Shown one piece after another: positions 3,205-13,234 of a stretch of DNA of 64,000 nt. The stretch spans positions 124,001 through 188,000 of the forward strand of contig JACRBZ010000030.1 in NCBI GenBank assembly GCA_016219185.1, in the 5' to 3' direction. Numbering within the stretch: position 1 is the stretch's first letter; each line of letters begins with the position of its first letter. Source of the DNA: Deltaproteobacteria bacterium. Its GTDB lineage: Bacteria; Desulfobacterota; Desulfobacteria; Desulfobacterales; Desulfatirhabdiaceae. The translations under genes and the position numbers were made by a program. The notes beneath the pieces were generated by a model that did no database searches, was not told where the DNA came from, and saw only the letters and a program-made list of their open reading frames with translations.

Positions 3205-4542
3205 CTATTCCGGTTTTTCCATGACCTGATACAGAATATCGCCGATGAATTTGAGATTCATACCCAGTCCATAATGATGATTGATATCCTCAAGGCCGCT
3301 ATGGCAGTTGTGGCAGGGTGCAATCAGGGTTTTGGCCCCTTTGGCTTTTACGGCAAAGAGCTGTTCTGCCTTGATGCGATTGCCGTCCATCCGTACCATC
3401 TTGTACGGAGGCCCGCAGTTGATGACCCCGCCGCCGGCGCAGCAGCAGTAATTGTGTTCGCGGTTCGGGTGCATTTCAATCAGGGTTTCACAAATCGCGC
3501 CGACCACAAACCTGGCCTTTTCATGAAGCCCTCCGCCGCGCACCACATTGCAGGGATCGTGCAGGGTGACCGGTTCGGTATATTTTTTGGTAATCTTGAT
3601 CCGGCCTTCCTTGATCAGATCATAATAGAATTCGATGGCGTGAATGATCGGAATGGGCGGATTTTTCCATCCCAGCCACCGGTTTCCCGTATCATACACC
3701 GATCTGAAGGCATGGCCGCATTCGCCCATCACGATTTTCTTCACTTTCAGGCGGGCTGCCGTTTCGTAATGCAGGCGCTTGATCCGGCCCATGAGTTCAT
3801 TGTCGCCGGTAAACATGGCCATGTCGCTGTTATCCCAGCCGGGCGTTGCGGGCATGGTCCAGTTAAGGCCCGCGACATCCATCAGCACGGCCGTCTGATA
3901 AATGAGCTGAGCCTGAAACTTGGGTTCGGGGCCGATTACCGAATACATGATATCGGCCCCTTCCTTTTCAAGGGGAATGCGAAGTTTCGGAATTTCGCTC
4001 CTGGCCTCTTCCTCCTGCCACTGAAGCGTGTCCGGCCATTCGTCCTCCTTGACCCACATCTGGTTCATGCTGACGGCATGGCTGTGCGCGGTGGCCTGGA
4101 TATTCTGGGGCGTTATGCCCAGAAGATGGGTGATGCGCCGGACCACGCTCATCAGATAGGCCACATCGATGCCAAAAGGACAGTACATGGCGCATCGCTT
4201 GCATAAATTGCACTGGGTGGCTGCGATGACGGCCGCCTGTCTCATGAACTCCTTGTCGACCCTGCCTTTTTTTCGGATCATCTCCCACAGGGTCTGCTTG
4301 ACCTTGCCGGCAGGCGAAAAGCGCGGATCGTTGTCATGGGACAGATAATAATGACAGCCTTCCGAGCACAGCCCGCAATGGACGCAGGTTTCCACATAAA
4401 CTTTCAGGCGGGCCCCGGCTTCAACATTTAAAACCCGGAGAATGGTCTTTTCGATCCTATCCTCCGTAAGCCTGGCCAGCCCCTTATCAATGCCTTCATC
4501 CGGAATAATTTGATCGACTTTATTTGCCGGTTCATTCATCAT
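3205..4542 (-). CDS. tmcB: Tmc complex iron-sulfur subunit, HdrD-like (TmcB)
   Basis: The 445-residue cytoplasmic-face subunit carries two [4Fe-4S] motifs, at residues 53-63 (CVHCGLCSEGC) and 111-121 (CNLCKRCAMYC). Two CCG-type cysteine-rich regions follow in the C-terminal half, including HDPCNVV, NYCCCAGGG and CHNCHSGLED. This is the layout of heterodisulfide reductase subunit D and of DsrK, HmcF and TmcB. Its place between a NarI-like membrane gene and a tetraheme cytochrome gene identifies the Tmc complex. It probably carries electrons to a thiol/disulfide or sulfur-carrying partner linked to sulfate reduction. The start ATG-ATG follows GGGAGG. Confidence 0.88.
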   Translation of the reverse strand: MMNEPANKVDQIIPDEGIDKGLARLTEDRIEKTILRVLNVEAGARLKVYVETCVHCGLCSEGCHYYLSHDNDPRFSPAGKVKQTLWEMIRKKGRVDKEFMRQAAVIAATQCNLCKRCAMYCPFGIDVAYLMSVVRRITHLLGITPQNIQATAHSHAVSMNQMWVKEDEWPDTLQWQEEEARSEIPKLRIPLEKEGADIMYSVIGPEPKFQAQLIYQTAVLMDVAGLNWTMPATPGWDNSDMAMFTGDNELMGRIKRLHYETAARLKVKKIVMGECGHAFRSVYDTGNRWLGWKNPPIPIIHAIEFYYDLIKEGRIKITKKYTEPVTLHDPCNVVRGGGLHEKARFVVGAICETLIEMHPNREHNYCCCAGGGVINCGPPYKMVRMDGNRIKAEQLFAVKAKGAKTLIAPCHNCHSGLEDINHHYGLGMNLKFIGDILYQVMEKPE

Positions 4543-4575
4543 CAGAGAACCTCCCTTTCTTTAAACATGCCTGTA

Positions 4576-5235
4576 TCACCAGTCCTTTGCGTGCCGTACG
4601 TTTCCAAATTCCGAACCCATGTAGGCTCTGGTAAACGGAGAAAACAGCATGTGGCTCAGCCGGGTAAAGGGGATGGCCATCAGCAGGATTTCACCCGAGA
4701 GGATATGAAGAACCAGAAAAAGCGGGTAATCGATCCATTGATGATAGGCGATAAAACCGGTCACAAACGGAGTCGCAACCATCCCCAGAATCACATGGTC
4801 CGATGCGGAGGTCAGATACCGGACTTCCGGCAGTTTGGTCCGGCGCAACCAGAAAAACAAGCAGCAGCCGATAACCACCAGCGTCATGATGTCTGAGACC
4901 GGATTCGGGAGCGTCCACAACCGAATATTCCAGGATTCATCCCAGAGCACCGCGTGAGACAGGAGAAAAACAGGCGTCAATAGCAAACAGATATGAAACA
5001 AAAAGGTTACCACCGTCATGACCGGATGCTTTTGCATGTTTACCGATCCAAATGGGATGATCCAGTGAAAAATGGAGCGCAGGCTGTATTTCCAGCTCAT
5101 GAATGAAAAAATGAATTTTTCTTTCCGATGAATGAGAATAAACATGTGAAGCAGCCGGTACAGACTGCCAACGATAAATACCGTAAAAGCCAGCCATGCC
5201 AGAGGGCCGCTCACGAATTGATAGATGTCATGCAT
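4576..5235 (-). CDS. tmcC: Tmc complex membrane cytochrome b subunit (TmcC, NarI-like)
   Basis: An integral membrane protein of 219 residues with about five hydrophobic helices and several helix-embedded His residues (for example in YRLLHMFILIHRK and LLSHAVLW) that could ligate b hemes. It resembles the NarI/DsrM/HmcE group, which links periplasmic cytochrome to the cytoplasmic iron-sulfur subunit. I chose the ATG at 5235 because an AAGGAG site lies 6 bases upstream; an in-frame start at 5265 would overlap tmcD. Spacing to tmcD is 16 bp and to tmcB 33 bp. Confidence 0.85.
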   Translation of the reverse strand: MHDIYQFVSGPLAWLAFTVFIVGSLYRLLHMFILIHRKEKFIFSFMSWKYSLRSIFHWIIPFGSVNMQKHPVMTVVTFLFHICLLLTPVFLLSHAVLWDESWNIRLWTLPNPVSDIMTLVVIGCCLFFWLRRTKLPEVRYLTSASDHVILGMVATPFVTGFIAYHQWIDYPLFLVLHILSGEILLMAIPFTRLSHMLFSPFTRAYMGSEFGNVRHAKDW

Positions 5236-5251
5236 GTTTTTTCTCCTTTTA

Positions 5252-6520
5252 TCACCCGAATTCACTGACGGGGATTACCCTGCGACAGTACACGCCGTCT
5301 TCGATGGTTCTAAAAAGTAGGCGGGTTCCATCCGAGCTGAACGCCGGATCCCATGCTGCATCACAGTCATGCGGCCACAGTCTGTCGTTCAGTGCAATCG
5401 TGTATTTGCCGCCGCGCTCTACTTTTGCGGCCACATGCGCGCCGTCCGGGCTGAAAACCGGTTTCCAGACCATATCAAAGGTGTTTTTCCAGGCCGATCC
5501 CTGAACTGCCATGCCCCAGCGCTCATTGTCCTTGACCACCGCGGCGATTTTTTGGCTGTCGGGACTGAATGTCAACTCCGTCACAAAATCACTGAAAAGA
5601 AGATTCCAGGCTTTGCCGTCCACGGCTACGGTCCATTTGCCAAACCCGGTGGAGACAATGGCGGCAAGGCGCTTTCCATCCGGGCTGAACAACGTATGCC
5701 AGAGCTGATCGAACGGGGTGGTCCACATCAATTGGCCATCTTCAGCCAGGTGCCATTTCCCTTTCACCCGGACCGGTGCGATCACCTTGCCGCTGATCGG
5801 AGAAAAGATCGGCTCCCATACCCCACCAAAGGTTTTCGCCCAGGGAACCCCATTGACGGCAATCGTATAATCATAAAGGGTCAGCCGTACTTCGGCAGCC
5901 AGGTCGCCATTCAGGCTGATGGCCTTGTTCCAGACATTCACGAAGGGACGCTCCCAGACCACACCGTCCATTGCAGCCGAAATCGTCCCTTCCTGAAATT
6001 TATGAATTTCAACTTCCCCTGAAGAAATCACCTGAACGGATGCTGCCGTATGGTTTCCATCCGGGCTCAGGGCCGGATCGGTCAGATTTGCGTAAGTTTT
6101 TTCCCAGGGAACGTCATTTAATACCATGCCATATCTGCTATCCTGCTGAAAGGACGCGGCGATGCTGTTCCCGTCCTTGCTGAACAGGGGGTTCCACACG
6201 TAAGCGAACCGGTTTTCCCAGGGAACACCATCCACGGCAACGGTCCACTCCCCCATCTCCGAAATCAGGGCCGTCAGCCTGCCATCGGTCGTAAAGCGCA
6301 GATGCCAGATTTTCTCAAAGGGATTTTCCCAGGTTTCGCCGTTCACACAAACATTGCCATTGATATGATTGGCACCTTCCGCCGAGTTGATAATCGCCGC
6401 AACCCGTTCCCCGTCAGGACTGGCATAGGGCTCCTCAACCCATTCAAACCGGCTGTTCCAATCCCCGACGGGAATGCGTTTTTCTCTGGTTTCCCAGTCC
6501 CATACAACGGTGTCCGTCAT
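5252..6520 (-). CDS. tmcD: Tmc complex tryptophan-rich beta-propeller-like subunit (TmcD)
   Basis: The 422-residue protein is built from about eight repeats of roughly 45 residues. Each has a phrase such as W-x-NxF-x-x-VW-xPxFSPDGxxxAA, in the style of TolB/WD40-like propeller blades, and it is strikingly rich in Trp. No signal peptide is visible, so it is probably cytoplasmic. The fourth Tmc gene in Desulfovibrio is also described as a tryptophan-rich protein, and position next to tmcC supports the same identity. Here it is the first gene of the operon (GGGAGG ribosome site), the reverse of the order I recall for D. vulgaris. Confidence 0.78.
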   Translation of the reverse strand: MTDTVVWDWETREKRIPVGDWNSRFEWVEEPYASPDGERVAAIINSAEGANHINGNVCVNGETWENPFEKIWHLRFTTDGRLTALISEMGEWTVAVDGVPWENRFAYVWNPLFSKDGNSIAASFQQDSRYGMVLNDVPWEKTYANLTDPALSPDGNHTAASVQVISSGEVEIHKFQEGTISAAMDGVVWERPFVNVWNKAISLNGDLAAEVRLTLYDYTIAVNGVPWAKTFGGVWEPIFSPISGKVIAPVRVKGKWHLAEDGQLMWTTPFDQLWHTLFSPDGKRLAAIVSTGFGKWTVAVDGKAWNLLFSDFVTELTFSPDSQKIAAVVKDNERWGMAVQGSAWKNTFDMVWKPVFSPDGAHVAAKVERGGKYTIALNDRLWPHDCDAAWDPAFSSDGTRLLFRTIEDGVYCRRVIPVSEFG

Positions 6521-7093: not shown

Positions 7094-7345
7094 TCATCCC
7101 ATTTTGCCGCAGCAGGAACCTGGTCCGGCGCAATGCGCCTGAGAGGGGGTGCTCCCGCAGCAGGCCGTATCTTTTGGCCCCGGTACATCTTTAGCGTTCC
7201 TGCCGGTCAGAGAACTCGTGGTGGACATCAGTCGGTTTGTCAGAGTGCTTCCGCAACCCGGGCAGGTCAAAGGATCATTGCTGCTGATTGCCAGCACTTC
7301 ACTGTTCTTGCCGCATGAGCGGCATACAATATCATAAATCGGCAT
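7094..7345 (-). CDS. FmdB-family zinc-ribbon protein with Cys-rich tail
   Basis: An 83-residue protein that opens with MPIYDIVCRSCGK and has a second CPGCGS knuckle, the FmdB/CxxC_CXXC regulatory-type zinc ribbon. The last 25 residues add a Cys-rich tail (ACCGS, GPGSCCGKMG) that could bind metal. I chose the ATG at 7345 because AGGAGATATACC precedes it; the longer upstream frame has no ribosome site. Similar small zinc-ribbon genes often accompany NifX/MinD clusters in sulfate reducers. The function is unknown. Confidence 0.75.
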   Translation of the reverse strand: MPIYDIVCRSCGKNSEVLAISSNDPLTCPGCGSTLTNRLMSTTSSLTGRNAKDVPGPKDTACCGSTPSQAHCAGPGSCCGKMG

Positions 7346-7420
7346 CGGTATATCTCCTGAATAAAGGCGGAAAATCGGAGGATTCCGACTTCCCGCCCGC
7401 AATCGGCATTCGAACACCGA

Positions 7421-7864
7421 TCATCGCTTATTTTTTTCTGAATTTCCCCATTCTTTTCGGTAATAATCGTCGATGGCTTCACCCAGTGTGTTTACCGCCA
7501 GGGATGCGCAATGCATGTGGTCTTCGGGCAAACCGCCCAGTTCCGTTGCCACAGCTTCGGGAGTCACGCCCAAAGCATCTTCCAGGCTTTTGCCGCTGAC
7601 CAGTTGACTCACGGCGCTGCCGCAGGCCACTGTATAGATACAGCCATGGGGAATCTGACCGATATTTACGATCTCCTGATTTAGAATCGACAGAGAAATT
7701 TCAATGGAATCACCGCAGACGCCCACTCCGGTTGCCTTTCCCTCTGCTTTCGGTATGGCCCCCATATTCCGGGGCTTATTGGCATGCACATAAAACCGTT
7801 CATCAAGCAGATGGGGCGGATGGTCAGGCCTCTTTTCAGGAAGCTCGCTCTCTCTTGCCATCAT
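7421..7864 (-). CDS. IscU/NifU-like iron-sulfur scaffold protein
   Basis: The 147-residue protein shows the three cysteines of the IscU/NifU N-terminal scaffold: GVCGDSIEISL, ACGSAVSQL and HMHCASLA. These normally hold a transient [2Fe-2S] or [4Fe-4S] cluster. An N-terminal extension of about 40 residues precedes the domain. It begins 12 bp after the NifX-like gene and is clearly in the same operon. With NifX-like neighbours it may build or carry the metal-sulfur cofactor of the ORP-like complex rather than serve general cluster assembly. No cysteine desulfurase is adjacent. Confidence 0.82.
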   Translation of the reverse strand: MMARESELPEKRPDHPPHLLDERFYVHANKPRNMGAIPKAEGKATGVGVCGDSIEISLSILNQEIVNIGQIPHGCIYTVACGSAVSQLVSGKSLEDALGVTPEAVATELGGLPEDHMHCASLAVNTLGEAIDDYYRKEWGNSEKNKR

Positions 7865-7876
7865 AGGACCTCGCAG

Positions 7877-8254
7877 TTAATGCGCACCGCCGCCGCAGGT
7901 GTGTTCCTGAGAAAATTGCTGAAGCTTGCCCTCAAGCAGCGCCTGCACGGCATTTCCAACGGTCAGGAAGTTTCCGCCGAAATAAACCTGAATTCCCACC
8001 TGGTTAAATCCCATGAGCGGGCGAAACCCCATGCCGCCGGCGATCAGTTTGGCAGCGCCTTTATCGGCCAGATACTGGACAGGTGCCATGCACCCACCCT
8101 GTTGATGCGGAACATTGGGGATTACATCCACTTTCTTGACGGTGTTGTCTTCCACGGTAACCAGCGTATAAAGATCACAGTGACCAAAATGGGCGCCCAG
8201 TGGCGCGTCAAGCCCACCCGGTGCCGAGGAAGGGATAGCGATTAAAGTATTCAC
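7877..8254 (-). CDS. NifX/NafY-like dinitrogenase Fe-Mo cofactor domain protein
   Basis: A 125-residue single-domain protein of the NifB/NifX/NafY C-terminal family (MTH1175-like). It has the LGAHFGHCDLYTLV strand and a PHQQGGC segment, followed by the glycine-rich GGMGFRPL turn. The C-terminus HTCGGGAH could bind metal. Members bind FeMo-type clusters or, in the orange protein ORP, a molybdenum-copper sulfide. It is the second gene of the leftward operon. No nitrogenase genes are visible, so an ORP-type role is more likely than FeMo-co delivery. Confidence 0.82.
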   Translation of the reverse strand: MNTLIAIPSSAPGGLDAPLGAHFGHCDLYTLVTVEDNTVKKVDVIPNVPHQQGGCMAPVQYLADKGAAKLIAGGMGFRPLMGFNQVGIQVYFGGNFLTVGNAVQALLEGKLQQFSQEHTCGGGAH

Positions 8255-8375: not shown

Positions 8376-9218
8376 TTACGCGCCATGACCCTTGCTGTTG
8401 GGCTTTGAGGCCATATCAACCCCGCCTGCCTTGAATTTGTCAATGGCCTGGCGGACCGTCATGTTCTCCAGATTCTGGCCGACTTGAATGCCTGCGGCGG
8501 ACAGCGCCCTGAATGCCTTGGGTCCGACAGATCCGGTCAGAACCACGTTGGCTCCGGATCGACAAACTGTCTCAGCCGCCTGAATGCCGGCTCCCTGGGC
8601 CATGGCCTGTGAAGATCCGTTATCGACAAACTTGAATTCAAGGGTGTCCGGATCGACGATACAAAATCCGGCGGCACGGCCAAACCGGGGATCGACCTGC
8701 GAATCCAGGCCGGGTTCTTCGCAACTAACTGCAATTTTTACCATAATATGCTCCTTTTTGAGTTCGAAAGCGGTGCTCGCCGCGCGACTGACGCCTCGGC
8801 CGCCACGCGGATTCATGCAACCGTCATGTCTGTTTACACGATGTTCCTTCTTTTCCAATGGACCCATTCCGGACAACCGTCCTCCGCAGCATCCCGGCAT
8901 GGTAAATGCCTCTTTTCTAAAATCGCCGGAGAGCCATGCCCGAATGATTTCGCAAAGGTCTCCAGCGACAAAAGAGACCACGCGAATATCATAAGCCGCA
9001 ATCTGGGACAGCATGAGCCGGGAAATGGCCCCACAAATCAGCGTGTCAACACCGAGCTCAATCAGGTAGCGACCTGTTTCAGGACCCGAATTCGCAGGCA
9101 GTTTTTCATCCGTTTCACGGACGATATGCCCGGATTCGGCCTCAATCAGCCGGATATCTCTGGCCACATCAAATACCGGGGCGATTCGTTTGTTCCAGAC
9201 TGCAAAAGCCGCTTTCAT
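8376..9218 (-). CDS. Tandem NifX-like (ORP-type) protein, apparently fused from two genes
   Basis: One uninterrupted frame of 280 residues contains two NifX/NafY-type domains. Residues 1-95 are the first (MKAAFAVWNKRIAPVFDVA), then comes a Gly/Arg-rich linker with GCCGG. The second starts near residue 157 (MVKIAVSCEEPGLDSQVDPRFGRAAGF). In relatives these are usually separate genes. An AAAGGAG site lies just before the second ATG (about 8743), so the second domain may also be made alone. A sigma-54 promoter lies 39 bp upstream of the start. It heads the leftward operon and is the best candidate for the ORP cofactor-binding protein. Confidence 0.8.
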   Translation of the reverse strand: MKAAFAVWNKRIAPVFDVARDIRLIEAESGHIVRETDEKLPANSGPETGRYLIELGVDTLICGAISRLMLSQIAAYDIRVVSFVAGDLCEIIRAWLSGDFRKEAFTMPGCCGGRLSGMGPLEKKEHRVNRHDGCMNPRGGRGVSRAASTAFELKKEHIMVKIAVSCEEPGLDSQVDPRFGRAAGFCIVDPDTLEFKFVDNGSSQAMAQGAGIQAAETVCRSGANVVLTGSVGPKAFRALSAAGIQVGQNLENMTVRQAIDKFKAGGVDMASKPNSKGHGA

Positions 9219-9256
9219 CTGTATCCACCTGAGTTTAAGAATCTAAGAAATGGCCA

Positions 9257-9273
9257 AAGCAAATATAGTGCCA
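9257..9273 (-). promoter_or_regulatory. Sigma-54 promoter for the leftward ORP operon
   Basis: On the minus strand the sequence reads TGGCACTATATTTGCTT. GG (9272-9271) and GC (9260-9259) are 12 bases apart, matching the -24/-12 consensus TGGCAC-N5-TTGCW. Transcription should begin near 9247, about 28 bases before the start codon at 9218. Confidence 0.88.
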
Positions 9274-9359
9274 AATAACAATTTAACTGAAATAAAAACA
9301 TAACAATATGATATTAATTGATATAAAGTGATAGTGCCACCGGGGGGAAATGAAATTCA

Positions 9360-9408
9360 GTCGCAATATTGCTACTATTGCAGGTTGAACAAGTTGCATT
9401 ATTGCGAC
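9360..9408. promoter_or_regulatory. Paired activator sites for the leftward promoter
   Basis: Two 16-bp near-palindromes, GTCGCAATATTGCTAC (9360-9375) and GTTGCATTATTGCGAC (9393-9408), have starts exactly 33 bp apart. They match the same dyad, GTCGCAATATTGCGAC. They lie about 90-135 bp upstream of the minus-strand sigma-54 promoter, the usual distance for enhancer-binding proteins. The probable binder is the sigma-54 activator at 11813-13234. Confidence 0.75.
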
Positions 9409-9495
9409 TGGTGTTTTATCGGCACGTCAGCTCATGCAAGCAGTTTATCGGGTAAAGATCGGCGGGACGATGCGCGGCTTTTCTGATCGTTTTGA

Positions 9496-9544
9496 GTCGC
9501 AATATCCAAACACGGCTGTTCATGCGTAGTTGCAAATTTGCGAC
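9496..9544. promoter_or_regulatory. Paired activator sites for the rightward promoter
   Basis: A half-conserved copy, GTCGCAATATCCAAAC (9496-9511), and a good dyad, GTTGCAAATTTGCGAC (9529-9544), again have starts 33 bp apart. They lie about 75-120 bp upstream of the plus-strand sigma-54 promoter. Two pairs with identical spacing in one intergenic region argue against chance. The remaining sequence from 9274 to 9617 is AT-rich and shows nothing else I can name. Confidence 0.7.
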
Positions 9545-9617
9545 GATATAATAACCGACAATTCGCCATATGTCTTATTAAACATAAAATTCAGAATATT
9601 ATAAATATATTCGATGC

Positions 9618-9634
9618 TGGCATGATAAATGCTT
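9618..9634 (+). promoter_or_regulatory. Sigma-54 promoter for the rightward ATPase operon
   Basis: TGGCATGATAAATGCTT has GG at 9619-9620 and GC at 9631-9632, the correct 12-base offset. The -12 element (ATGCTT) is slightly weaker than on the leftward promoter. Transcription should start near 9644, leaving a leader of about 150 bases before the first clear start codon at 9792. Confidence 0.78.
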
Positions 9635-9791
9635 GATGTCAAGAATCAGGAGGCGCCCAGCGTTTGAGCCTGTCATTGCCGAACGGGTATCTTTCCGGGG
9701 ACTCAATTTTCTCCGGGCCGATATAAAGGACAGAGTCCGATCCTGCCAATCGGGCGCAAACGTCGTCCATGAACAAAAGGAGGGTCATATC

Positions 9792-9992
9792 ATGCCAAAT
9801 AGAGACGGAACCGGCCCAAGGAATCAGGGGTCACAATCAGGGCAGGGAGGCGGAAAAGGGCAAAAACAAAGAGGCCCTGGTTGTCGAAGAGGACCTAAAG
9901 ACGGCATCGGTCCAGGCTCCGGGGGTGGGCGGGGCCGCGGCCAGGGGACTGATAAAGAAGATGCCACGGATAAATCAAGCAAGGAGTCATGA
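9792..9992 (+). CDS. Small glycine-rich basic protein
   Basis: A 66-residue protein that opens MPNRDGTGPRNQG and is otherwise mostly Gly, Lys, Arg and Gln. The opening resembles the small DUF5320-type proteins found beside NifX and MinD-like genes, but I cannot prove the match. The start is set by AAAAGGAGGGTC six bases upstream. Its stop overlaps the start of the first ATPase gene (ATGA), so translation is probably coupled. The function is unknown. Confidence 0.65.
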   Translation: MPNRDGTGPRNQGSQSGQGGGKGQKQRGPGCRRGPKDGIGPGSGGGRGRGQGTDKEDATDKSSKES

Positions 9993-10840
9993 TGATTATC
10001 AGCATAGCGAGCGGAAAGGGCGGTACGGGCAAGACAACGATCGCCACGAACCTGGCCGTTTCTCTTGGGGGCGATGTCCAGCTTTTGGACTGCGATGTGG
10101 AGGAGCCCAATGCTTACCTCTTCATCCGGCCCAAAATTCATGAAACCAGGATCATTAACACTCCGGTACCCGAAGTGGATATGGAAAAGTGTACCCTTTG
10201 CGGCAAGTGCCAGGATATCTGCCAGTTCAAGGCGATTGTCGTCATGAGCAAAACCGTGCTGCCTTTCCCCGAGCTTTGTCACAGTTGTGGCGGCTGCATG
10301 CGCGTTTGTCCGGAAAAGGCCATCACGGAGACGGGCCGCGAAATCGGCGTCATCGAACGGGGCAGCCGAAACGGGTTGGAATTTGTTCATGGGAAACTGC
10401 GGGTCGGCGAGGCCATGTCCCCCCCGCTGATCCGGAAAGTGCGAGAATACGCAAGGCCCGATGTGCTGACGCTTATCGACGCCCCACCCGGAACTTCTTG
10501 CCCCGTCATCGCCGCCATGAAAGGGGCGGACTTTGTCTTGCTGGTGACCGAGCCCACGCCTTTTGGACTTCACGATCTCAAACTTGCCGCGGGAGCCGTG
10601 GAAATCCTCGATATTCCCTGCGGTTTGGTCATCAACCGCTCGGACATGGGTGATGATCGCGTCAGGGAGTATGCTGAGGGTCAGGGAATGCCCATTTTGA
10701 TGGAGATCCCTTTTGATCGAAAAATCGCGGAAGCCTACTCGCGGGGCGAAATGCTCGTGGAGGGGATGCCCGAATGGAAAGAAAGATTTCTGAACCTGCA
10801 CCATCGGATTGAAGCAATCATCTCTCAAACACCCAAGTAA
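9989..10840 (+). CDS. Ferredoxin-MinD-type ATPase, first of a pair
   Basis: A 283-residue deviant Walker-A P-loop ATPase of the MinD/Mrp class (SGKGGTGKTT at residues 9-18; IDAPPGT as the later Walker motif). Two [4Fe-4S] ferredoxin motifs are inserted near residues 68-110 (CTLCGKCQDIC and CHSCGGCMRVC). In D. vulgaris homologous ATPases belong to the ORP complex and are reported to influence cell division. Possible roles are metal-cluster handling or positioning of the ORP protein. It is followed after 30 bp by a paralogue. Confidence 0.88.
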   Translation: MMIISIASGKGGTGKTTIATNLAVSLGGDVQLLDCDVEEPNAYLFIRPKIHETRIINTPVPEVDMEKCTLCGKCQDICQFKAIVVMSKTVLPFPELCHSCGGCMRVCPEKAITETGREIGVIERGSRNGLEFVHGKLRVGEAMSPPLIRKVREYARPDVLTLIDAPPGTSCPVIAAMKGADFVLLVTEPTPFGLHDLKLAAGAVEILDIPCGLVINRSDMGDDRVREYAEGQGMPILMEIPFDRKIAEAYSRGEMLVEGMPEWKERFLNLHHRIEAIISQTPK

Positions 10841-10870: not shown

Positions 10871-11734
10871 ATGAAAGAACTGATCGTTATCAGCGGAAAA
10901 GGCGGAACCGGGAAAACAAGCCTGCTTGCCGCCTTTGCTTCCCTGGCAAAGGGGATGGTGCTTTGTGACGCTGATGTGGACGCGGCAGACCTTCATCTCA
11001 TTATGGATCCCCGGATTGTTGAGCGCCATGATTTTGAGTCCGGACATTCAGCCGTAATCAACCCGGACCCGTGTACCGAGTGCGGCCTGTGCCGGGAATT
11101 GTGCAAATGGAACGCCATCAGCGAAGAATTTGTCGTGGATCCCATTGCATGCGAAGGGTGTGGTGTCTGCTATTATTTTTGCCCTGAAAAGGCCATCACG
11201 TTTCCTTTGGACACGTGCGGCGAGTGGTTTCTATCCGATACGCGATTCGGGCCCATGGCACATGCAAGATTGGGTATCGCCGAGGAAAATTCGGGGAAAC
11301 TTGTCAGCCTGATCCGGCAGCAGGGCAAATTGCTTGCCGGAAAGAAAAATCTGGATCTGCTGTTAACGGACGGTCCTCCGGGTATCGGTTGTCCGGTAAT
11401 CGCCTCACTTGGCGGGGCCACGGCAGCGCTCATCGTGACCGAGCCCACGGTTTCAGGCAGACACGACATGGAGCGGGTGGCGGAGCTTGCCGCCTTCTTC
11501 AAGGTTCCGGCCATGGTCTGCGTCAACAAATATGACCTCAATCCCGATATGGGACGGGCCATTGAGAGTTATGCGCAAGAAAAAAACATGATCGTCATGG
11601 ACCGGATCCCTTTTGATCCGGTCTTTACAAAGGCAATGGTTCAGGGTAAGACGATTATTGAATTTGACCGCCATTCTGAAGGCGCAGTTGCGGTCAAAAA
11701 AATATGGGAAGATCTGACCCGGCTCTGGGGATAG
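10871..11734 (+). CDS. Ferredoxin-MinD-type ATPase, second of a pair
   Basis: The 287-residue paralogue of the preceding gene has Walker A SGKGGTGKTS, an inserted ferredoxin domain (CTECGLCRELC and CEGCGVCYYFC) and DGPPGIGCPV. The two may form a heterodimer, as the conserved pairing in sulfate reducers suggests. The ribosome site is AAGGAAAAGAGACG. It is the last gene of the rightward operon and faces the sigma-54 activator gene across 78 bp. Confidence 0.88.
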   Translation: MKELIVISGKGGTGKTSLLAAFASLAKGMVLCDADVDAADLHLIMDPRIVERHDFESGHSAVINPDPCTECGLCRELCKWNAISEEFVVDPIACEGCGVCYYFCPEKAITFPLDTCGEWFLSDTRFGPMAHARLGIAEENSGKLVSLIRQQGKLLAGKKNLDLLLTDGPPGIGCPVIASLGGATAALIVTEPTVSGRHDMERVAELAAFFKVPAMVCVNKYDLNPDMGRAIESYAQEKNMIVMDRIPFDPVFTKAMVQGKTIIEFDRHSEGAVAVKKIWEDLTRLWG

Positions 11735-11812: not shown

Positions 11813-13234
11813 TCACTGTTCATGTCGGATTCGGGTACGCCCATCCCCTGGCGGCAGGGAAAGACCCAAGCGCTTCATTTTTCGGAACAGGGTACTCTTA
11901 TGAATACCGAGTGATCGGGCCGCGGCCAGACGGTTAAAATCCGTTTGCTCCAGGGCATTTCGAATGGCCTGGGCCTCCATCAGCTCCCGGGATGTCTGCA
12001 TATCGGCATGACATACCCGCGTCGTGTAACGGGCCGACAGCTCTTCCGGCAGATGTTCGATGGCAATGACACCCTGGTTGCACAGAATAAAGGCGCGTTC
12101 AATTGCATTTTCCAGCTCCCGGATGTTTCCCGGCCAGTCATGGGCCATCAGCAGGGAAAGCGCTTCCGGTGCGATCCCCTGGGTGGTTTTTTGCTGAAGC
12201 CGGTTGAACCGGGCGATAAATTGCTCCACCAGAAGCGGGATGTCTTCTTTTCGCCGGCGAAGCGGCGGCAGTTCGACGCGGATGACATTCACGCGATAAT
12301 ACAAGTCCTCGCGGAATACATGCTGGTGCACCCGTTCGGCCAGGTCCTTGTTGGTTGCAACGATGATCCTTGCGTTGGTGGTTTCGGATCGGGTCGCACC
12401 CAGGGGTTCGTAGGTCCGATCCTGGAGCACCCGCAGGAGCCGCACCTGAAACGCCGGGCTCACTTCACCGATTTCATCCAGAAAAAGGGTTCCGCCTTTG
12501 GCCATCGCAAAACGTCCCGGCTTGTCCTTTCCCGCGCCGGTGAATGCTCCGGCCTTATATCCGAAGAGTTCGGATTCCAGAAGGGTATCCGGCAAAGCGC
12601 CGCAATTGACTGCAATAAAGGGTTTTTTGCTTTGGGGACTCAGTGCGTGAATCGTTTTTGCCACCAGTTCCTTGCCGGTTCCGGTTTCCCCGAGAATCAG
12701 CACCGTACTGGGGCTGGCAGCGATGGCCGGAAGGACATCGAATACTTTCTGCATCAGGGGACTGCGACTTGCCAGATCACCGATGTGAAAGCGTCCCTCC
12801 AACTCCTGGCGCAGGGCCTCGACTTCACTCAGGTCCCGGAAAGTCTCTGCTCCGCCGATGATCTGCCCCTGCCCGTCCCGAAGGACCGCGGTGGAAACGC
12901 TGACCGGAATGCGGGTTCCATCCGCGTCAATGATGTAACCGGTCTGGCCGATGATCGCCTTGCGGTTTTTCAGGGTTCGCCGCAGTGCGCATTCGATTTC
13001 GCACATGCTGGAGCGGAACACTTCCGAGCAGAACCGGCCGATGGCCTCGCTGCGTGAAGTTTTGGTAATCTTCTCGGCCGCACGGTTAAACGAGGTGATG
13101 CGCCATTCCCGGTCTACCGTGAAAACACCATCTGAAATGCTTTCAAGGATGGCTTCGGTCGGTGTAAGCGGGGTGGATATTTTTATCTTTTTATGAACGC
13201 TCATCCGATTGTATGAAGACTCCTGTTGCACCAA
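11813..13234 (-). CDS. Sigma-54-dependent transcriptional activator (PAS-AAA+-Fis), likely ORP regulator
   Basis: 473 residues in three parts. A PAS sensor spans about 25-140, including ISDGVFTVDREWRITSFNRA. The AAA+ domain spans about 155-390, with GETGTGKE, the sigma-54-contacting GAFTGA loop and LFLDEIGEV. A Fis-type helix-turn-helix lies at the end (LAAARSLGIHKSTLFRKMKR). No receiver domain is present, so it senses a ligand or redox state through PAS. It is convergent with the ATPase operon and is the only activator beside the divergent sigma-54 promoters and their palindromes. In D. vulgaris the orp operons are controlled by such a neighbour. Confidence 0.9.
   Translation of the reverse strand: MVQQESSYNRMSVHKKIKISTPLTPTEAILESISDGVFTVDREWRITSFNRAAEKITKTSRSEAIGRFCSEVFRSSMCEIECALRRTLKNRKAIIGQTGYIIDADGTRIPVSVSTAVLRDGQGQIIGGAETFRDLSEVEALRQELEGRFHIGDLASRSPLMQKVFDVLPAIAASPSTVLILGETGTGKELVAKTIHALSPQSKKPFIAVNCGALPDTLLESELFGYKAGAFTGAGKDKPGRFAMAKGGTLFLDEIGEVSPAFQVRLLRVLQDRTYEPLGATRSETTNARIIVATNKDLAERVHQHVFREDLYYRVNVIRVELPPLRRRKEDIPLLVEQFIARFNRLQQKTTQGIAPEALSLLMAHDWPGNIRELENAIERAFILCNQGVIAIEHLPEELSARYTTRVCHADMQTSRELMEAQAIRNALEQTDFNRLAAARSLGIHKSTLFRKMKRLGLSLPPGDGRTRIRHEQ

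Follow-up and report, generated by a model that had tools for sequence, protein, structure and literature searches.

It is already known from D. vulgaris that divergent orp operons are under sigma-54 control, exerted through palindromes for an activator. In the Hildenborough strain, DVU2106 (OrpR) acts on palindromes at both divergent sigma-54 promoters of orp1 and orp2, with IHF in between, as described in the portion of PMC3897727 on which we draw. The gene content that defines an orp locus, the ORP complex and MrpORP are taken from excerpts of a second paper (PMC6345978). A further system to compare with is the NtrC enhancer of glnA, whose sites are given as about -90 and -140 in the extract of PMC7408454 used here.

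We analyzed a 64,000-nucleotide stretch of genomic DNA from a member of the Desulfobacterales, referred to as the window, and its host genome, together with related genomes. D. vulgaris orp1/orp2 has the same logic as the locus described here, which therefore belongs to a known kind of system. To this we add an operator grammar, the extent of that grammar across the order and a set of candidate extra targets; the pairing of the operators is not claimed as new to print. Our main reading, to which we assign a probability of roughly 0.85, is that the region is an orp control region with divergent sigma-54 promoters, in which an OrpR-like activator would bind each of two dyad pairs as two dimers, seed a ring and switch on both operons.

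Layout of the locus

Two gene sets, the left one on the minus strand and the right one on the plus strand, flank an intergenic stretch (9219-9791). The genes are as follows.

7094..7417, minus strand: FmdB-type zinc-ribbon protein, left operon (predicted)
7421..7864, minus strand: NifU_N scaffold-type protein, left operon
7877..8254, minus strand: Nitro_FeMo-Co domain protein, left operon
8376..9218, minus strand: Nitro_FeMo-Co protein with two such stretches, left operon
9792..9992, plus strand: small Gly-rich ORF with a weak DUF5320 match below the cut-off, right operon
9989..10840, plus strand: MinD/ParA-type ATPase with 4Fe-4S domains (first ATPase), right operon
10871..11734, plus strand: second MinD/ParA-type ATPase with 4Fe-4S domains, right operon
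11813..13234, minus strand: likely cognate activator, OrpR-like, with PAS, sigma-54 AAA+ (GAFTGA) and Fis-type HTH domains

The locus is of the orp type (“orange protein”, Fe-S), with two divergent operons that have a sigma-54 promoter each, two MinD-type 4Fe-4S ATPases (Orp3/Orp4) and a Nitro_FeMo-Co protein (Orp8). It shares with D. vulgaris orp the two divergent sigma-54 promoters and one single-component activator, palindromic activator sites (here predicted) upstream of each promoter, and the set of Fe-S/orange-protein genes, two MinD-type ferredoxin ATPases and Nitro_FeMo-Co proteins. Unlike in D. vulgaris orp, no full-length MrpORP (Orp9) was found among the proteins searched, four matching proteins reaching 38.9-55.7 bits with the NCBIfam model NF041136 against a cut-off of 450. 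The position of the activator gene differs as well: it lies between the operons in D. vulgaris, whereas here it is convergent with the right operon and sits at its far end. No locus titled D. vulgaris was among the best 80 of 322 loci from the contig scan. A few genes past the left set, at 3205-5265 on the minus strand, the window carries membrane redox genes that by eye are HdrD/DsrK- and DsrM-like.

The activator has a PAS domain and lacks the N-terminal receiver domain of the two-component regulator NtrC; it would act like NtrC but is not classed as NtrC. As a single-component PAS - sigma-54 AAA+ - Fis HTH protein encoded with orp genes it is of the OrpR/DVU2106 type, a comparison for which we presume a PAS domain in DVU2106. 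Among solved activators, ZraR (1ojl) and NifA (9qq6) match it over the AAA+ core and C-terminal HTH (residues 156-455 and 135-455, respectively), and none of the 35 best stretches listed starts before residue 135, leaving the PAS domain uncovered. Of 25 activator orthologues aligned over the PAS region, 24 show a C-x8-C-x3-C pattern, the exception (L169) being an out-of-frame reading at that point. Judged from the alignment, this pattern is compatible with a redox or Fe-S input to the activator; OrpR of D. vulgaris reportedly carries an Fe-S cluster in its PAS domain. The AAA+ loop of the same 25 proteins reads GAFTGA (10), GAFTDA (8), GAFTNA (4), GAFTHA (2) or GAYTGA (1), and that of DVU2106 is GAFTDA according to the excerpt of PMC4641369 used here.

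Divergent promoters and paired dyads

The elements of the intergenic region are listed by position; G005 and G006 are two genomes of the same genus.

9273->9258, minus strand: sigma-54 promoter of the left operon, TGGCACTATATTTGCT, predicted start ~9247
9301..9313, minus strand: weak IHF-like match, TATCATATTGTTA, 1 mismatch, between left promoter and left pair
9360..9375: dyad 1, left pair, GTCGCAATATTGCTAC, less well kept in G005 and G006
9393..9408: dyad 2, left pair, GTTGCATTATTGCGAC, 33 bp after dyad 1
9496..9511: dyad 3, right pair, GTCGCAATATCCAAAC, degenerate, left half alone intact
9529..9544: dyad 4, right pair, GTTGCAAATTTGCGAC, 33 bp after dyad 3, identical in G005 and G006
9618-9633, plus strand: sigma-54 promoter of the right operon, TGGCATGATAAATGCT, predicted start ~9644

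An earlier note on this DNA had described two facing -24/-12 promoters. Both are real, with 0 mismatches to the consensus TGGCAYN5WTGCW, and both are conserved in G005 and G006, but they point outward and diverge. A separate sigma-54-like match (1 mismatch) lies at 11102-11117 on the minus strand of the window, antisense inside the second ATPase gene; it recurs in five other loci (L055, L056, L057, L059, L077) and probably reflects coding constraint.

The same note counted four copies of a 16-bp dyad. Three of these (9360, 9393, 9529) are good copies and the fourth (9496) is a half-site, while the step within each pair is exactly 33 bp as claimed (9360 to 9393 and 9496 to 9529). Scanning the window for GTCGCAATATTGCGAC with at most 3 mismatches returned only the three good dyads and missed dyad 3, compared with a mean of 0.28 and a maximum of 2 matches in 100 shuffles. 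Dyad 3 is identical in G006; G005 shares both promoters and dyad 4 with the window but has a more degenerate version of dyad 3. The four-dyad layout is intact in the window and in G006.

We ran the genome-wide search for the 16-mer that had been proposed as a check. With at most 1 mismatch to GTYGCAWWWTTGCGAC, the host genome (6,380,792 bases) contains the sites at 9360, 9393 and 9529 only; a common 16-mer, named in the note as a refuting outcome, was thus not seen at this stringency. Single dyads with at most 3 mismatches are common and not enriched (161 for the forward vs 235 for the reversed pattern). The double dyad at a spacing of 33 bp (at most 3 mismatches in 24 fixed bases) occurs at 2 sites, both at this locus, against 1 for the reversed-pattern control, and the host genome has no double dyad at spacings of 32, 38 or 43 bp.

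The DNA between pair and promoter is rich in A+T on both sides (73% and 75% vs 48% for the locus). IHF sites are proven in D. vulgaris, whereas here they are not detectable above chance: the region holds 2 IHF-like matches with at most 1 mismatch vs 0.9 in shuffles, and one of them overlaps the right promoter. Dyad centres lie at -107.5/-140.5 relative to the predicted start of the right operon and at -120.5/-153.5 relative to that of the left operon; for the NtrC enhancer of glnA we take the centres to be -108 and -140. In both systems a sigma-54 promoter is preceded by activator dimer sites in tandem, some three turns from each other; for the window their role as dimer sites is predicted. 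They differ in that NtrC is a phosphorylated response regulator and the activator here has a PAS domain, and in the sequences of the dyads.

A related arrangement was seen in L078 (genome G049), where three dyads with steps of 32 and 30 bp lie at ~4905-5170 between two divergent sigma-54 promoters. This is a shared-enhancer version of the layout in the window.

Dyad pairs across the order and their link to the activator

We scanned 291 genomes of the order, at the level of DNA only, for the double dyad (at most 3 mismatches in 24 fixed bases) at spacings of 32, 33, 38 and 43 bp. Spacing 33 yielded 21 sites in 20 genomes (reversed-pattern control 4) and spacing 32 yielded 32 sites in 30 genomes (control 1). 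As the motif was derived from the window, divergent operators are under-counted in these numbers. The genomes of the relatives are partly incomplete, and most of the loci named here come from MAGs. We fetched 50 loci that account for 51 of the 53 sites; one of them (L185) holds both pairs of the host, and one site each in G006 and G019 is without a locus. A sigma-54 promoter follows the pair 20-220 bp downstream in 45 of the 50 loci (16/20 at spacing 33; 29/30 at spacing 32); the corresponding share among simulated random loci is 1.15%. In 32 loci (12/20 and 20/30, respectively) we found a homologue, scoring at least 60 bits, of the activator, the ATPases or the Nitro_FeMo-Co protein. Neither orp-type nor Hdr/CGGC genes were found in 11 of the 50, and 4 of these 11 also lack the promoter, which is about the number of the reversed control.

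The presence of a pair could also be compared between loci with and without the activator. Pairs scoring at least 20/24 at 30-34 bp were found in 15 of 25 loci with an activator hit of at least 400 bits vs 5 of 103 loci without, a contrast that is confounded by kinship because many of the 103 come from distant phyla. At 36-40 bp, as at 24-28 bp, 2 of the 25 activator loci and none of the 103 others have a pair of this quality. The 10 activator loci scored as having no such pair include L090, in which no promoter was found. Of the 5 pair-bearing loci without activator, one (L056) is truncated and two others (L070, L097) do have an activator hit, though a weaker one. For 18 of the 25 orthologues, a sigma-54 promoter lies just downstream of the gene (at most 500 bp after it). 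The recognition helix is well conserved (LGIHKSTLFR in 10 and LGMHKSTLFR in 3 of 25). Altered outer bases occur in the operators of L060 and L104, the two members whose helix reads HPTTLWR; L065 has them as well despite the common helix, and co-variation of helix and operator is therefore only a hint.

We considered that the dyads might be read by another regulator, either a paralogous sigma-54 activator or a non-sigma-54 protein, with the neighbouring PAS activator serving other targets. Candidates exist, as the activator has 77 matches of all kinds in the host genome, dozens of AAA+ homologues among them, with the best paralogue at 45% identity. Moreover, the activator gene is away from the dyads at the other end of the right operon, and some pair loci have no activator in the fetched 3 kb; none was found over 7 kb in L203 and 5.5 kb in L205. 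We nevertheless regard this explanation as unlikely: the pairs track the activator orthologue, this orthologue is followed at short distance by a sigma-54 promoter in most of its loci, and the D. vulgaris counterpart DVU2106 is reported, in the part of PMC3897727 cited above, to act on palindromes of the orp promoters.

The gene of the closest paralogue (L202:4990-6919; host genome, G000:C4:95000-105500) immediately precedes a sigma-54 promoter of its own (1 mismatch). After this promoter come a gene that by eye is receiver-like and a large flavoprotein gene that by eye is HdrA-like, and the dyads there are weak. Elsewhere in the genomes of congeners we observed a further double dyad at spacing 32 (L211 in G005, L210 in G006 and L209 in G003). 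The one in L211 adjoins a 51%-identical activator and a Nitro_FeMo-Co-type gene, which suggests a second orp-like system.

A fixed distance of about three helical turns

The other two spacings of the order-wide scan gave little. At 38 bp, half a turn off, there was 1 site (reversed-pattern control 0), and at 43 bp, corresponding to four turns, there were 4 sites (control 1), at or near background. From the near-absence at 43 bp we infer that a distance of about three turns is kept and not merely a shared face of the helix. The proposal of the earlier note that the activator oligomer binds on one helix face is supported by this comparison: the enrichment of 32-33 bp across the order with almost nothing at 38 bp agrees with it, and the background level at 43 bp argues for a fixed distance in addition to a shared face.

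Loci collected by their genes gave a second view of the spacing. The first ATPase was sought in 57 genomes including the host and matched in all 57 at E <= 0.001, in 48 of them below 1e-70. Stretches around this gene were taken and 48 loci (47 plus the window) were scanned for a dyad pair at 28-36 bp, with at most 6 mismatches in 24, no more than 300 bp upstream of a sigma-54 promoter (at most 1 mismatch). Such a pair was present in 21 of the 48, and all printed spacings were 30-33 bp except for 36 bp in L077.

For a spacing profile we picked 18 loci blind to the dyads, the rule being an activator orthologue of at least 400 bits whose gene is followed on its own strand, at a distance of no more than 500 bp, by a sigma-54 promoter. 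The promoter part of this rule excluded 7 of the 25 activator loci (L055, L080, L084, L085, L090, L110 and the window). Among 48 windows of three spacings each, the mean best pair score peaked at 31-33 bp with 19.28 of 24. The next separate peak window reached 17.5 at 23-25 bp, and shuffles gave 13.77 +/- 0.18 with a maximum of 14.33 in 60. A spacing of 22 bp, or two turns, scored 15.22 like most spacings. The best pair was at 30-33 bp in 12 of the 18 loci (one tied with 23 bp) and at other spacings in 6 (L057, L060, L077, L107, L108, L117).

These profiles bear on a simpler account, in which the activator binds each dyad independently and the 33-bp step is a functionless leftover of a local duplication. 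Such an origin would fit the closeness of two pairs with an identical step in the window and the degeneracy of one of their dyads. The step of 32-33 bp recurs, however, in many families with different spacer sequences, and the longer spacings are at or near background; we consider independent binding very improbable. That the dyads are RNA hairpins or terminators rather than operators, as a terminator-like flag on dyad 2 (9392-9409) might suggest, is scarcely credible and was rejected, because the dyads are upstream of both predicted starts and the recurring features are their mutual spacing and the downstream promoter.

Discussion

Taken together, the enrichment of spacings of 32-33 bp, the promoters downstream of the pairs and the linkage to orp-type genes make it likely that two dimers of the activator bind at a set distance of three turns from each other. 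Cooperative binding by an activator oligomer, and the protein encoded at 11813-13234 as that activator, had both been put forward in the earlier note, which did not recognize the locus as an orp system, and the comparative evidence lends them support as predictions. In the mechanism that we propose, two activator dimers on each pair, three helical turns apart, would favour or seed the active ATPase ring. The ring could then reach the closed sigma-54 RNA polymerase complex by looping out the A+T-rich DNA between pair and promoter, possibly helped by IHF or by intrinsic bending. Both operons would be switched on together, so that the scaffold and Nitro_FeMo-Co proteins are expressed jointly with their ATPase partners. 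The predicted input is redox or Fe-S status, which may be sensed by the cysteine-bearing PAS domain.

In 7 of the 50 pair loci (L187, L190, L195, L212, L213, L214, L230) the pair precedes CGGC-domain, HdrC-like or HdrB-like genes, an assignment based on Pfam for L187 and L195 and on ORFs judged by eye for the other five and for the names HdrC and HdrB. In several genomes of the order a sigma-54 promoter accompanies the double dyad ahead of such genes. Hdr-like and CGGC-domain operons are possible further targets of a wider regulon. Longer stretches were taken for loci of this kind (L203, L204, L205). In L204 an Hdr-like operon that has a 33-bp pair and a promoter to itself ends ~1.3 kb before an activator orthologue (56% identity), and downstream of this orthologue come another promoter and a Nitro_FeMo-Co-type gene. 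A bolder proposal, which we advance tentatively and hold to be somewhat less probable than its negation, is that OrpR-type activators use the double dyad as a rigid ruler, on which two dimers placed three helical turns (32-33 bp) apart, and not simply on one face, nucleate the active ring. It might mark an order-wide anaerobic redox regulon made up of orp and CGGC/HdrC/HdrB-like operons, and might have been doubled in the genus of the window, with one ruler per divergent promoter.

The orp operons of D. vulgaris are a studied case of sigma-54 control in strict anaerobes, and this case is now extended to many families of one order. The double dyad provides a DNA signature that is good enough to find target operons by sequence alone. 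In addition, the fixed three-turn spacing makes it testable whether a pair of dimer sites sets the assembly of a sigma-54 activator ring.
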